Below are positions 1 to 30,446 of a stretch of DNA of 38,521 nucleotides, one piece after another. The DNA lies in assembly GCA_024761205.1 (NCBI GenBank), contig JAMASS010000044.1:1-38521 (forward strand), read 5' to 3'. Each line of letters begins with the position of its first letter. The stretch's first letter is position 1. The translations under genes and the position numbers were made by a program. The notes beneath the pieces were generated by a model. That model did no database searches, had not been told where the DNA came from, and saw only the letters and a list, made by a program, of their open reading frames with translations. Source of the stretch: Limisphaerales bacterium (GTDB lineage Bacteria > Verrucomicrobiota > Verrucomicrobiia > Limisphaerales > AAA164-E04).

Positions 1-1912
1 TCGTAAAACTCCACGGTGCCTGTCGCATGATTTCCGGCAAACTCAACTCGTTGGGAAGCCCAATGGACCACCTGATCAAACCAACGCCGCTCAAGGACAA
101 CCTTTTCTCGTTTGTCAGTGCCTCGCGCAGGATCGACGTCAGCACTTGTCGGTCCCGCTTTTCCTTGGTATCCGACGCGCTGAACAGGCCAGCCTCTTCC
201 CACTGTTTGAGCAATCGGTTTCTGAGATCGTCGATGGACAGACCTTCCGTATCGACCTTTTCCGCTTTGATCGCCCGCAACATGAGGTTGCGGTCACGCA
301 GTTTTTCGTAAGAATCCTCGGCATACCAAGCAAAGAACGCAGCCTCTTGGCGACTGTCGGCGAATGCCAGCACCTTGCGCTTGTCTTCTGGTAGCAGTTC
401 ATGCAGGGCGGTGGCGATGACCGCGTTGGGGCCGTCCGAACCGTGCACGATCTCCTGTACCGGGTCGCCGATGCCGCCGCGCCGATAACTGCAAATCTCA
501 CATTGCTTAAGTTGATCGTGATGATCTTGGTGGGTCTCGCATCTCTTCACGGGAATCGCCGCTCCACAATCGCATTTCGGATTGGACTTCGACAATGTGC
601 CACAACGCCTGCAAAGTAACTCATCCCCGTCCTTCACGGGACAGTAGTAGTCCACGCCGAATTTAGGTTGGCTCGGGTCGCGGACAGCCTCCCCGAGCTT
701 ACCGCCCCGTTCTTGGCCAACGTAGTAGTGCTGGCCGCACTCGCGGCACAGGGCAATTTCCAGCGGTTCAGCAGTCGATCCATTTTCGCTTTCGCCCCTG
801 CGGTTAAGCACGACAGCGTCCTCGCCGTTTCTGTGAACGAGAAACGCCCCTTCAAGCGCGCGCAGAAAAGCGTGGTAGCGGCGTGGAGCTTCGCCGTCAG
901 CCGTCGGTTGTGATTCGCCAAATACAATATCGGATGCTGAAAAAGGCTCTCCGAAGAGTTCCTGTGCAAACTCGGCAACCGCTTGTTTGTCTTTCTTGCC
1001 TTCGCCGGAGGAAACGGTCGCGCTGGTGGCGATGCAGCGAAACTGGCCCTGTCGTCCGCCATCGCGTAGCCGCTGCTTGAGCCGACGGACCAGCATACCC
1101 ATCTCCATGCCCTTAGCACCGCGATATTGATGCGCCTCGTCGAGCACGATGAACTGCCAATGCTTGCCTCGTCCGCCGTCGAACAACGGGCTGTCGTCCG
1201 GGCGAATGAGCAGGTACTCCAGCATGGAGTAGTTCGTCAGCAGGATGTGGGGCGGCGACTGTCGCATCTCATCACGAAATACAAGCTCTCCCGGCAGCCG
1301 GCCCTCGGCGCGCGCCGCAGCGTTACGCCATCTGTCCCTGGCATCCTCCGGTGTCTGTCCGATGTATTGCCCGAACGTCGGTTCGAATCCAGACTTCGCC
1401 TCGCCCAATTTCCGGCAGATCGCACCCAGCCGCTCACGCTGATCGTTCGCCAGCGCATTCATGGGGTAGAGGATCAAGGCCCGCACTCCTGGTTCTTTCA
1501 GCTCCTCATTGAGGTGCTGGCGATAGAGCTCGAACAGGATTGGGTAGAGAAAACTTTCGGTCTTGCCACTGGCGGTGCCGGTGGCGACGACGATGTTCCG
1601 GTTGTTCATGTGCGTGGCGCGGATGGCGCGTTCTTGATGCACATATAACGACTTGTCGATCAGCGCGTGAAGAAGATCATCGCTCTTGTCCGAGAAACAC
1701 TCCCTCGCCAATTCTTGTGCGCGCAATCCGGTTTTGAAGCCCCGATCTGATTCGGAAAACGGGCCTTGCAGTAGTCTCCTTTCTTCCTGCAAGGCAGCCT
1801 CGAACGAGGCTCGCAGTTTCGGCTCCTTGAAGAAAAAGGAAGTCTTCAAATAGTTCTCGTAACGTTGGCGAATCTTCTCAGGCCACAATTCTATGTTGCT
1901 TGCGTCAGGCAT
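1..1912 (-). CDS. DEAH-box helicase of the DUF1998-helicase type, 3' end beyond the window
   Basis: The frame is open from an ATG at 1912 to the left edge, giving 637 residues with no stop, so the gene is partial. Visible motifs are a Q-motif-like VHQERAIRA (about 91-99), Walker A ATGTASGKTES (110-120), a TNYSMLEYLL block (226-235), the DEAH box (258-261), SAT motif III (297-299), and the start of the second RecA lobe (KVLAFADSRQEAAFF). Between the lobes lies a cysteine-rich insert beginning CRECGQHYYVG, with several CxxC pairs, probably a zinc-binding module. This arrangement is known from MrfA/YprA-like and DUF1998-associated helicases, including those in Druantia, DISARM and Dpd defence loci. 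The DUF1998 part itself would lie outside the window and was not seen. The ATG overlaps the stop of the upstream gene by 8 nt, so translation is probably coupled. The substrate and a defence role are inferred. Confidence 0.9.
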   Translation of the reverse strand, partial: MPDASNIELWPEKIRQRYENYLKTSFFFKEPKLRASFEAALQEERRLLQGPFSESDRGFKTGLRAQELARECFSDKSDDLLHALIDKSLYVHQERAIRATHMNNRNIVVATGTASGKTESFLYPILFELYRQHLNEELKEPGVRALILYPMNALANDQRERLGAICRKLGEAKSGFEPTFGQYIGQTPEDARDRWRNAAARAEGRLPGELVFRDEMRQSPPHILLTNYSMLEYLLIRPDDSPLFDGGRGKHWQFIVLDEAHQYRGAKGMEMGMLVRRLKQRLRDGGRQGQFRCIATSATVSSGEGKKDKQAVAEFAQELFGEPFSASDIVFGESQPTADGEAPRRYHAFLRALEGAFLVHRNGEDAVVLNRRGESENGSTAEPLEIALCRECGQHYYVGQERGGKLGEAVRDPSQPKFGVDYYCPVKDGDELLCRRCGTLSKSNPKCDCGAAIPVKRCETHQDHHDQLKQCEICSYRRGGIGDPVQEIVHGSDGPNAVIATALHELLPEDKRKVLAFADSRQEAAFFAWYAEDSYEKLRDRNLMLRAIKAEKVDTEGLSIDDLRNRLLKQWEEAGLFSASDTKEKRDRQVLTSILREALTNEKRLSLSGVGLIRWSIGLPNELSLPEIMRQAPWSFT

Positions 1913-4196
1913 TGAGCAGGCTCCGGATCGTTTCTATATTGTTTGGGTGTTTGCTCTTTCGGCGTTTGTCAATAGGTATAGACTGACGCTTTGCATCAGC
2001 CGTCGTAAAGCCTGCGGCCCGGATCTCTCTATAGCTGAAACCCTTGCCGCGTCTCCATCCTCCACCTACCCCCTTCACGTGAGCAATAGGTTTCTCGACG
2101 GGCTGTGGCGGTCGGTCAACGACTACGGTAACAATTTGGGTCACGTCGTCTAAGCCGGAAGCCGTCAATCTCAGCGTGTAGATCGTAGTCTCCGAGGGCG
2201 CGACCACGACGCTTCCGTTTGCCTCAACCGTACCAATTTCGGGATCAATTGTAATAGCATCGACCTCTGTGCCGGAGGTCTTCCAGCACAATGTCACCTG
2301 TCCTCCTGCGTTGACCAACGCCGGTTCGTGCGTGAAAGAAACAATTTTCGGCACGGGATCGGCGGAGATCAAAATAAGTGACACCTTGGCATCGCCGCAT
2401 TCAACATTGAGCGAGGCATTCTCCTTTAGTCGTTGGTCGATCTGCGTATAGTCGACAAAGTCGGTCAACCGAAGATGCAGCGAAGCCCAGCTGTTGTTTT
2501 CTCCCTTTTCAGATTGATATGTTCGTTCCAACTCATCATCGAACCCGACCCGAACTGACTTGAGCCGTCGCGGCAAACGTAGCTTTATAGTCGCGTTTTT
2601 ATCGGCGTGCTCACGAAATTCCTGTCGCGTCATGGTGAGCGGCGTATCGCGCCACTCACCGGGTTCATCTGCATCCCCCTCTATTCGCCACCAGATCCGT
2701 GGCAAATGCAATACAATGTCAACGCACCCCGTTTCGGATTTCAGTGCAAGCGACACGTCATCTCCGTCCGGATGTGTATCGACAGTGAGGTTGCCTGCTT
2801 CTAACTCTGCGCGCGTTACCTCGGACGGCAAGCTCGGGTGAATGGTTGCGCCATCAACACCGATGAAACGCACCGTTGTCGGAGGATGGCTAGTCGAGGA
2901 CGGCGCGAGGATCGTGTCTTGAGTATACTGATCATCATTCACGAGAATCTCCTTGAGATCGCACAGGTATCGGAACTGGTCACTATCCAGCATCCCCGCT
3001 TCTTCGTAGACGCGGACGAAAAACCGCCCCTGACGGCCATCCAATACCTGTGCAAGAGTTTGCTCGGCCGGCTTAAAGTTCTCGCCTTTCCATCTGTCTT
3101 GCCCTTCCGACCCGACTCGTGCCCAGACGATGTTTTGTGGAACTTTCAATTCTGGAACTGAGCCAACAAACAATTTACCGTCTTCGGAATCGTCGAAAAC
3201 GGACTCACCTTTCAGTTCGAAGCCGGAAGTCGTCAACGGCACTTCATGCCCCTCGAAGCCACCAATATCCTCTGTTGGGTTGCTACTATCCCGAAAGAAA
3301 TAGTGCGCTCTAAAACCTGCATCCGTGCAACCTGCCGACTCCACAGGTATATCACCTTTTCGCGTCCATTCCTTTGGTGCGATGACGATGAAGTAGCCTT
3401 TCGTAATACCCTTGACCTTACGGCCATCCCCTTTCCAATTGTTTCTCAGCTTGAAGATTAGGGGTTTGTCGTCAAATAGCGAGAGTTTACACTTTGTGCC
3501 GTCTTCGAGCGTAATGGACAGCTGGCCACGGAACGATGAGAGACGGCATTCGTCATTCACCACTTTCAAAGGCTCATCATTGCGCTGCACTTCCTTAATT
3601 GGGGTTTTGTCATTCGCGGATAGGACAATATCCCAGAGCAATGAACCGGCAAGCCAGCGGCAGATCAACTCTGGACGAAAAGTTGGCGGTTGTCGTGGCC
3701 CTGAATTTGGTCTTGGATGCCCGCGATTCCTTATCCCTGGTATGTCGCGCGGCTCTTCTGGTTCTGGTTTCTTTGTCTCCGTGTTGCCTCCCGCAGAGTC
3801 GGAACTTCCATCAAGAATGTTTTCTCCGGGTGATTTGTCCTCCTGCGACGGCTCGGGAGGCGTTTCCTCAGCCTCATCCGGACTCGGTGGAGGGGGTTCG
3901 GGTTTAGCAGGGCTTGGGTCATGTTGGCTGTTGTCTATAACGTCATCGGCTCCGTTGTCGGTATTGAATGGCGGGTCAATAGGCGGCACGTTATCTTGAT
4001 TATCCGGCGTCCCGATACTGTCATTCTTAGCCTTGGTGCTCGGGCAGTCTGGTACAGAAGCACTAGGACACTCTTTCGGTATCTCAACTGAGGAATTCGT
4101 ATCCTTGGAATTCTTGCCTCTGCCGGAGACAGCCGCACCCATCCATTCTCGTATCTTTTGGATTATCTCTTTTATCTTTTGCCACATACACATCAC
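1905..4196 (-). CDS. large hypothetical protein with Ig-like and C-terminal ribosomal-L13e-like domains
   Basis: A 763-residue protein starts at GTG 4196 or, equally well, ATG 4193. A strong AGGAGG lies 5 to 8 nt upstream. N-terminal residues 1-20 are basic/amphipathic. Residues about 25-175 are low-complexity, acidic and proline-rich, like a disordered linker. Residues about 175-610 are globular and unrecognised, rich in beta-like segments. Residues about 616-707 look like an Ig-like beta-sandwich (PKIVSFTHEPALVNAGGQV, then a TIYTLRLTASG strand). Residues about 708-763 resemble ribosomal protein L13e: GKGFSYREIRAAGF matches the family pattern GRGFSLEELRAAGI, followed by a D-x-RRKSK basic segment, an Asn and a final RSLL. 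No signal peptide or catalytic motif was seen. The overlap with the helicase implies a shared complex or pathway. Function is unknown. Confidence 0.85.
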   Translation of the reverse strand: MMCMWQKIKEIIQKIREWMGAAVSGRGKNSKDTNSSVEIPKECPSASVPDCPSTKAKNDSIGTPDNQDNVPPIDPPFNTDNGADDVIDNSQHDPSPAKPEPPPPSPDEAEETPPEPSQEDKSPGENILDGSSDSAGGNTETKKPEPEEPRDIPGIRNRGHPRPNSGPRQPPTFRPELICRWLAGSLLWDIVLSANDKTPIKEVQRNDEPLKVVNDECRLSSFRGQLSITLEDGTKCKLSLFDDKPLIFKLRNNWKGDGRKVKGITKGYFIVIAPKEWTRKGDIPVESAGCTDAGFRAHYFFRDSSNPTEDIGGFEGHEVPLTTSGFELKGESVFDDSEDGKLFVGSVPELKVPQNIVWARVGSEGQDRWKGENFKPAEQTLAQVLDGRQGRFFVRVYEEAGMLDSDQFRYLCDLKEILVNDDQYTQDTILAPSSTSHPPTTVRFIGVDGATIHPSLPSEVTRAELEAGNLTVDTHPDGDDVSLALKSETGCVDIVLHLPRIWWRIEGDADEPGEWRDTPLTMTRQEFREHADKNATIKLRLPRRLKSVRVGFDDELERTYQSEKGENNSWASLHLRLTDFVDYTQIDQRLKENASLNVECGDAKVSLILISADPVPKIVSFTHEPALVNAGGQVTLCWKTSGTEVDAITIDPEIGTVEANGSVVVAPSETTIYTLRLTASGLDDVTQIVTVVVDRPPQPVEKPIAHVKGVGGGWRRGKGFSYREIRAAGFTTADAKRQSIPIDKRRKSKHPNNIETIRSLLNA

Positions 4197-4320
4197 TCAT
4201 GCCTCCTCGCGTGTAATGCACCTTCGGTCGGCCAGACTCCTGCTTTCGTCACCCTTGAAGCACGCTTGGACCCGCCGCTATATCAGGGGGCAATTCCTGT
4301 TTCAGTGCCTGCCACTTTCT

Positions 4321-4464
4321 CTATTCTTCGGCTTCGTAATTGTGCCGGATGAGGTCTCGGATATACTCGCTCGCCGAACTGAAAGAGCCTAGTTTTGGAT
4401 CGCTCTTTAATTTAACGAACTCCTGAAGCCTGCCCGGCAATCGAACATTAATTCCTCCTGGCAT
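4321..4464 (-). CDS. ribbon-helix-helix (ParD/CopG-like) regulator, truncated at an in-frame TAG
   Basis: The short frame begins ATG 4464 and encodes 47 residues ending at TAG (4321-4323). INVRLPGRLQEFV is a typical RHH beta-strand plus helix 1, and SFSSASEYIRDLI is the helix 2 signature of ParD-type antitoxins. Directly after the TAG the same frame continues for 23 codons to TGA (4249-4251). Those residues (RKWQALKQEL, then IAAGPS) look like the normal ParD C-terminal tail that binds the toxin. The gene therefore probably arose by a nonsense mutation that leaves the DNA-binding fold complete. No ParE toxin follows. Instead the 763-residue gene begins 52 nt after the TGA on the same strand. 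A perfect inverted repeat lies 11 nt upstream, suggesting autoregulation. It may now act as the operon's repressor. Too short for most gene finders. Confidence 0.7.
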   Translation of the reverse strand: MPGGINVRLPGRLQEFVKLKSDPKLGSFSSASEYIRDLIRHNYEAEE

Positions 4465-4475
4465 AGATCAAACCT

Positions 4476-4515
4476 ATCAATTTCCCACAATTTATCAAGA
4501 TTGTGGGAAATTGAT
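4476..4515 (-). promoter_or_regulatory. perfect 16-bp inverted repeat, candidate operator of the RHH operon
   Basis: Arms ATCAATTTCCCACAAT (4476-4491) and ATTGTGGGAAATTGAT (4500-4515) are exact reverse complements around an 8-nt spacer. The element ends 11 nt before the RHH start codon. RHH antitoxins typically repress their own promoter by binding palindromes in this position, so an operator is the best explanation. An mRNA hairpin in the leader is the alternative. No T-run follows, so it is not an intrinsic terminator. Confidence 0.6.
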
Positions 4516-4832
4516 CCTGGTCTGGGTTGAAGTGAGCTGAAGTCAAGCTCAGAGGGAATTCCCTCATGGTGCATGGGAAAGCGGCGAATAATCGCAGCAT
4601 TCCACAACCTGACGGCTTCTCATGGCCTCCTGAGGGTGTGATAGCATTCTGGAGCGCGGTGATCTTTCACCGCTTTTCCCAGATCAAAACTTCCAATAAT
4701 TTCTCAGCGGCACTTCATTTGCCCTCAAAATCAGACACGGACAAAGAGAAACCAAGCAACTGAAATTTTGCTTTATTGAATCGCGCTGCAACACACATTG
4801 GATTGCAACTCGGTTGATGGTAATATCCCCGC
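4516..4832. other. intergenic region, no gene supported
   Basis: This stretch lies between the divergent RHH operon and the VOC gene and should contain both promoters. Short ORFs here show no family resemblance. No repeat or RNA gene was recognised. Confidence 0.5.
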
Positions 4833-19874: not shown

Positions 19875-20443
19875 CCGATTCCTCCTGCAAGTAAGTCTGA
19901 ATGTAGTCGAAAGTCTGAAGCGTGCTTTAAGGAATGCGGATTCTCCGAGTGAATCCGACGTGATGCGTCCATGCGAGTGAGTTCTTTTATGACGGTGAAT
20001 CGAGGCAAGAGAGGAATTGTTGGACTGTGTAATCGGTGTTTTCCGGCCTGCTCAACAAAGGGGTGAGAGCGAGGTATTATTTTGCCAGACAGTCAGGCAA
20101 CTTGGAATCGCAACTTTCGGTGAAGAACGTCCGAGAAACGTCATTGAAGATCTGTTTTCGTACTTCCGGCAGCAGCTATTGGTCCTTTGCGTTTGGTGGG
20201 AAGATGTGGGAGCCTAGGTTGAGGTAGGATGAACAGGATAAAGAAATCATGTGGGTGCTGTTCATCCTGTCTCAAATTTTTGTTCGATGAAAGCCGGGAT
20301 TGTCAGCCGCATGTTGTCTGCGCTAAGGCGGCAAGAATGTAGCAAAGCGCGTGGTGTGGTTGGGGTTTGTTGTCCTGGGGCGGCAGCTGATTTCGGTCGG
20401 TTTTTTTCTCCGTCGAAGTTGCCTAAGTGGGGGAGTTGGCATT
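19875..20443. other. intergenic or decayed, no gene supported
   Basis: No coding frame with family resemblance was seen. A hairpin lies at 20226-20268 and is listed separately. Confidence 0.4.
20226..20268. repeat. 11-bp inverted repeat (hairpin)
   Basis: AGGATGAACAG (20226-20236) and CTGTTCATCCT (20258-20268) are exact reverse complements with a 21-nt loop. A T-rich TTTTTG follows about 8 nt later on the plus strand, too far for a standard intrinsic terminator. It lies in gene-free DNA. Confidence 0.5.
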
Positions 20444-30095: not shown

Positions 30096-30115
30096 GCTCC
30101 TTCAGTCTCCGAACT

Positions 30116-30149
30116 AAAAAAGCCCGCTAGAACCCTACCGGGCTTTTTT
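30116..30149 (+). terminator. intrinsic terminator after GAPDH
   Basis: AAAAAAGCCCG (30116-30126) pairs perfectly with CGGGCTTTTTT (30139-30149) around a 12-nt loop. The A/T flanks allow function from both strands. It lies 20 nt after the GAPDH stop. Confidence 0.9.
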
Positions 30150-30393
30150 ATTCGCAAGTTTCCTGGCTCTAGCAACGGTCTTCAGCGGCAGTCACGCCCA
30201 TGAATCGAGGCCACACTCCATACGCGAAGCAACACCGTCTGTTTCTGTAATGGTCTCGCTCAGTTCGACCGCTTCACTAGCGCTTGAAGCCGCCTCGCCT
30301 TCGATCGATTGATTGAACATTCATGCTGCTAGAAACATTTGGGGACACCCGGGATTACGGCAAGTGACCCGAGGCCAATGTTTAAAAAATTAT

Positions 30394-30422
30394 CGCCGTC
30401 GTCTGAATTTCAGACGACGGCG
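30394..30422 (-). terminator. intrinsic terminator of the small heat-shock gene
   Basis: CGCCGTCGTCTGAA (30394-30407) and its exact complement (30409-30422) form a long hairpin with almost no loop. On the minus strand it is followed by ATAATTTTTTAAA. It begins 25 nt after the TAA of the Hsp20 gene, which lies on that strand. Confidence 0.85.
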
Positions 30423-30446
30423 ACATCGCTATCATTCAACCGCTGA

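Follow-up and report, generated by a model that had tools for sequence, protein, structure and literature searches.

What is the role of a perfect inverted repeat that lies just upstream of a small RHH gene? The repeat is located in a 38,521-nt stretch of DNA from a Limisphaerales bacterium, which was analyzed as a whole and is referred to as the window. Its arms, ATCAATTTCCCACAAT (4476–4491) and ATTGTGGGAAATTGAT (4500–4515), are complementary at 16 of 16 bp (100%) and flank an 8-nt gap, and an 11-nt spacer (4465–4475) separates the repeat from the start codon (ATG, 4464) of an ORF on the minus strand. The arm length, gap, and distance to the start codon given in the original prediction are all borne out, as is its statement that the length and perfection of the repeat lie far beyond chance: chance would yield ~3e-4 inverted repeats of 16 bp, without mismatch and with 0–30 nt between the arms, in the window and 0.04 in the 4.94-Mb genome. 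Among the matches listed (arms at most 200 nt apart), this repeat is the sole perfect inverted repeat of at least 16 bp. The coordinates of the features are given in Table 1.

Table 1. Features of the repeat and the adjoining gene, numbered by position in the window
Feature	Position	Strand	Basis
Perfect inverted repeat, 16-bp arms and 8-nt gap; predicted operator of ParD-type gene	4476–4515	-	Core conserved in relatives
Conserved dyad core, TCCCACA-N12-TGTGGGA	4483–4508	-	27/32 close relatives at ≥11/14 letters
-35-like TTGATA in the gap, in the register of the relatives' TTGACA	4493–4498	-	Column counts
Weak -10-like TAGGTT, 3/6, spacer 16	4471–4476	-	Best -10 of window
47-aa RHH ORF, read as N-terminal DNA-binding half of ParD-type antitoxin; TAG at codon 48	4321–4464	-	Homologue and profile matches
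Continuation of ParD frame past TAG: 23 codons, start of toxin-binding tail, then second stop	4252–4320	-	Translation

The 47-aa product of the ORF begins MPGGINVRLPGRLQEF and ends in NYEAEE, which is followed by TAG. Homologues were detected in 10 of the 97 genomes in the relatives search, its own genome counted, and the best other homologue, from an order-level relative (G040), is 72% identical, lacks the stop, and remains open to 91 aa. All nine aligned proteins, among them the 47 aa of the window, match the ParD family antitoxin model TIGR02606 at E ≤ 0.1 (best, 1.1e-11), with alignment member 1 falling under the curated cut-off (35 versus 46.2 bits), and eight of the nine match PF03693 (best, 3.4e-6). 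By itself, the window's 47-aa sequence matches no Pfam family at E ≤ 1. Among solved structures, the alignment profile matches the ParD chains 7b22 and 3kxe at E ~6e-4. The ORF is read, from these homologue and profile matches, as a ParD-type antitoxin reduced to its DNA-binding half, without the toxin-binding tail. The C-terminal ParE-neutralizing tail was not found in the window ORF, in which the TAG at codon 48 is joined by a second stop of the ParD frame at codon 72. The original prediction overlooked that this RHH gene reads as a truncated parD, beside which no toxin gene was detected, and that relatives carry a -35 element within the gap of the repeat.

In the first two relatives, the upstream sequence TCCCACA-N12-(T/C)GTGGGA has the core and spacing visualized in the window. 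The full scan comprised 58 loci: 32 close relatives, 25 distant relatives, and one excluded locus (L086), in which ParD is interrupted by an insert and whose contig bears the dyad with one mismatch to the pattern (this contig belongs to G063 of the class-wide scan). The dyad is present at 11 or more of the 14 core letters, within 130 bp upstream, in 27 of the 32 close ParD relatives, and 16 of these match at 14/14; dinucleotide shuffles reach 11/14 in 0.6% of cases (41/6,400). None of the 25 distant ParD relatives reaches 11 of the 14 core letters; for two of them, L110 and L111, the alignment begins at residue 25–26 and the start is extrapolated. Over the 27 distinct sites, the consensus is gTCCCACA-N3-TTGACA-N3-TGTGGGAc, with the CCAC of the left half-site and the GGAC of the right half-site invariant and the flanking letters kept at 26/27 (G) and 27/27 (C). 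The gap contains a -35 hexamer in one register (TT in 27/27, G in 25, A in 24, C in 23, and A in 19), followed 17 nt later by a loose TAT..T block, and the core ends 18–43 nt ahead of the ATG. The half-site, GT-CCC-AC, forms a small pseudo-palindrome. Record titles assign the relatives to Verrucomicrobia, Planctomycetota, and a few others, with five relatives under Planctomycetota-type titles scoring 12–14, and titles of MAGs can be wrong.

Five of the 32 close relatives score under 11/14; one of these, L067, starts with MAEGVNVRF, as do family members that carry the dyad. The Rickettsiales-titled locus L081 was scored as a miss and retains the GT-N3-AC half-sites, the spacing, and TTGACA, amounting to 12/12 architecture letters; its triplets between GT and AC differ from those of the relatives. 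A different dyad, TTGGCAA-N3-TTGCCAA, is found 5–15 nt before the aligned start in the distant relatives L088–L091, L094, L101, L102, L109, and L112, whose proteins begin with MNVSLP or MNISLP, and is a predicted second operator type. On the contig of the excluded locus (L033; G063:C145), the ParD gene is split at ~1326–1501 by a MITE-like insert of ~160–175 bp with inverted ends AAAAAGAGCAGTTGAG and CTCAACTGCTTTTTTT, and the upstream operator and downstream ParE are still present.

The converse search, in which 384 genomes of the class were scanned with the dyad pattern at up to two mismatches, returned 14 sites in 13 genomes, compared with one for a reversed-pattern control. All nine sites with at most one mismatch precede a ParD gene, that of G063 being the one interrupted by the insert. 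Five sites have two mismatches; these include the site in the window, three sites inside stop-to-stop frames of 507–599 aa, and one (L136) that lies only in short overlapping frames. Where it is strong, the motif is thus specific to ParD within this class. ParD matches occur in 14 genomes of the class, of which ten have a site within two mismatches and four are without one. Several of the loci in the relatives scan come from genomes of this class-wide ParD search, so independence of the two samples cannot be assumed. A phylum-wide search returned only genomes already in the class search, and no held-out set was gained.

Within its own genome, the exact 14-mer half-site occurs only at the two arms of the repeat, and the exact dyad core occurs at one site, that of the window. 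The only dyad with a single mismatch is within a 741-aa open frame, which we take, from its sequence, to be gyrA. Dyad sites with two to three mismatches are about as frequent as those of the reversed-pattern control (totals per strand, 141 versus 128). With two mismatches allowed, the half-site has 50 matches versus 11 for a control whose word composition differs, and no conclusion is drawn from this excess. The original prediction had proposed that the site might reveal further targets of the repressor; a regulon in the genome is not supported because there is no second exact site and the single-mismatch site is inside an ORF. The repeat is present as a single copy and not as one of many identical intergenic repeats, the pattern that had been named as speaking against an operator.

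The repeat is very probably the autoregulatory operator of the ParD-type (RHH) antitoxin gene, in a module that is decaying in the window. An operator of the adjoining RHH gene was what the original prediction proposed, and the conservation of the dyad, of its spacing, and of its regular position before ParD relatives argues for this assignment. The arrangement found here, a conserved dyad overlapping the promoter of an antitoxin gene, corresponds to an operator architecture as far as sequence can indicate. In relatives with a working module, the antitoxin would bind to two half-sites, GTCCCACA and TGTGGGAC, that flank the -35 element at fixed spacing, with the second half-site placed within the promoter spacer. 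Because the repeat overlaps the promoter, with the -35 element in its gap, bound antitoxin would shut RNA polymerase out of the parDE promoter, resulting in classic autorepression. The pseudo-palindromic nature of GT-CCC-AC fits one RHH dimer per half-site; alternatively, several ParD dimers could be aligned on the 40 bp. A multi-dimer RHH site is plausible, with half-sites 19 bp apart from center to center and each containing GT-N3-AC in most relatives. Any activity remaining in the window would be self-repression by the 47-aa RHH protein.

The operator of the window has peculiarities of its own. The flanking G and C of the relatives are replaced by T and A, a symmetric double change, and the affinity may be altered because letters kept in 26 and 27 of the 27 relatives are absent here. 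The 16-bp arms consist of the 7-bp core, 7 bp outward, and 2 bp inward. When the arms of the relatives are counted as the core plus contiguous symmetry, ignoring core mismatches, they measure 8–11 bp in 23 of 27 sites, 12–14 bp in three, and 17 bp in L078. The dyad of L078, with perfect 17-bp arms around a 12-nt gap, is the longest of the 27, and the next, that of L059, measures 14. Templated copying between the arms (quasi-palindrome correction) was considered as a cause of the long arms of the window; flank identities with the three relatives L055, L056, and L057 (left, 3, 6, and 2 of 12; right, 7, 3, and 1 of 12) show no consistent direction. The promoter of the window is weak, and no sigma-70 site reached the threshold of the scan. 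Decay of this promoter was considered as a claim and dropped, since no more than 10 of the 27 relatives have an in-register promoter by the same criterion.

A tblastn search of the window with the ORFs that follow ParD in relatives detected nothing resembling ParE at the locus, the best match window-wide having an E value of only 0.056; these queries were the longest ORFs after ParD (>70 aa), several of which are not ParE. A parDE module has a ParE gene beside parD, and no ParE match was detected beside the ParD-type gene of the window. When two ParE queries were compared with 24 loci, some of which share genomes, 14 matched over most of ParE, L032 and L055 (one contig) matched over only 35–36 residues at the ParE start, and eight had no match: the window, L047, L053, L054, L061, L062, L068, and L069. 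In L061 and L069 ParD is open, and L062 and L068 reach the contig end soon after ParD. With no toxin gene detected and a truncated antitoxin, the module in the window is probably what is left of a system of a common type.

Rather than being dead remains, the 47-aa RHH protein could be kept, together with its operator, as a stand-alone repressor, perhaps one that also controls the downstream 763-aa gene (1905–4196, minus strand). This reading is unlikely. The operator is perfect and unusually long, and comparison with L055 gives 23 synonymous and 8 nonsynonymous differences in codons 1–47 versus 6 and 9 in codons 49–65 of the tail. These counts are no proof of ongoing selection on the RHH half, however, because full-length homologues, too, vary more in the tail (pairwise identity averages 53%, versus 70% for the RHH half, among eight full-length relatives); with no dS value obtained for the RHH half, the counts also leave the truncation undated. 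A second candidate is G158 (L047), which has a separate TAG at codon 45, just past the RHH half, an operator with one mismatch, and the -35 sequence TTGACC, and in which ParE was not found. Against a kept repressor, the flanking G and C have been lost from the window operator, and the frame after the stop is readable for 23 codons, as fits a recent break. The 763-aa protein has partial matches in five other genomes, but on contigs without a ParD match, and no link between this gene and ParD was seen in relatives when contig matches were compared. A broader proposal holds that decay of parDE modules repeatedly leaves mini-repressors that consist of the RHH half alone, lack a toxin, and keep their operator (the window and G158), and that these survive as autoregulated DNA-binding proteins in their own right, the operator of the window having been symmetrically rewritten and its arms lengthened to 16 bp for the shortened protein; this is more doubtful still.

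The 763-aa ORF contains a proline-rich stretch, and its residues ~556–699 are common to proteins of five relatives (31–43%). Over 40 aa, its C terminus resembles ribosomal protein L13e (PF01294, E 2.6e-6), which makes for an odd combination. A Pfam scan of seven other ORFs in the window returned nothing, and positions 4200–4600 have no match in a plasmid collection.

The repeat could also act as an RNA hairpin (a terminator, attenuator, or small RNA) and not as a protein-binding site. With a stem of 16 bp and a loop of 8 nt it would fold, and there is a weak resemblance to Rfam ES036 (E 0.013; 25.2 bits versus a gathering score of 37.6), but nothing in 4200–4850 matches Rfam at gathering level and no terminator-like site, with a GC-rich stem and T run, is found within 4380–4650. 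In the relatives, the loop corresponds to the -35 element and the right arm to the promoter spacer, so the repeat would lie upstream of the inferred transcript start, and a hairpin role is highly improbable. Least probable of all is a mobile or repetitive element (MITE, REP, or IS end): the surrounding DNA seems to be variable because the sequence upstream of the neighboring M29-peptidase gene is not common to three same-genus genomes (one compared over only ~0.6 kb), but the repeat is single-copy and the dyad of the relatives keeps its regular relation to ParD.

The predicted autoregulatory operator of the ParD-type antitoxin can be compared with those of other RHH antitoxins, including that of FitAB, whose toxin family differs from that of parDE. 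CopA-SO of Shewanella oneidensis, the RHH antitoxin of a ParE system (CopA-SO/ParE-SO), represses its own operon via two GTANTAC repeats (PMC8706911). These promoter palindromes are reminiscent of the GT-N3-AC units of the relatives; however, they are 3 nt apart (PMC8706911), whereas the units here are 14 nt apart with the -35 element between them and contain a CCC triplet. In RK2, ParD needs no partner for repression and likely acts on a pair of adjacent palindromes (PMC8251345). The best solved relative by profile, Vibrio cholerae ParD2 (7b22), binds its own upstream DNA, and its dimers line up, suggesting extended operators (PMC8251345). Operators of parDE modules are little described; according to that 2021 report, neither the mechanism of parDE transcription regulation nor the V. 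cholerae ParD2 target was known (PMC8251345). A later preprint on control of the V. cholerae ParD2 operon appears by title in the reference list of another report (PMC9731233). PrpA of Pseudoalteromonas rubra (7ycs/7ycu) is an RHH antitoxin of the same structural kind that binds its own promoter via the RHH half alone, but its motif, (G/A)TTTG(T/A)AAT(A/G), is unlike the present consensus (PMC9731233). In FitAB, two RHH units occupy operator sites ~15 bp apart, compared with 19 bp from center to center for the half-sites of the present dyad (PMC10899793).

The reading as an autoregulatory antitoxin operator is well supported and of an ordinary kind, and its consensus was not found in print. 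A literature search on the operator consensus, including TGTCCCACA together with antitoxin, gave no match in the listed titles or the opening parts of abstracts, and a full-text search for an orphan antitoxin found nothing. The consensus, with its fixed promoter geometry, is testable for the ParD clade of Verrucomicrobia, Planctomycetota, and a few other MAGs, and allows intact or decayed parDE loci to be spotted with nothing but the DNA sequence. Other strong inverted repeats in the window are located at 20219–20275, 30115–30150, and 30393–30423; the repeat at 30115–30150, with arms TAAAAAAGCCCG and CGGGCTTTTTTA, looks like a bidirectional terminator.
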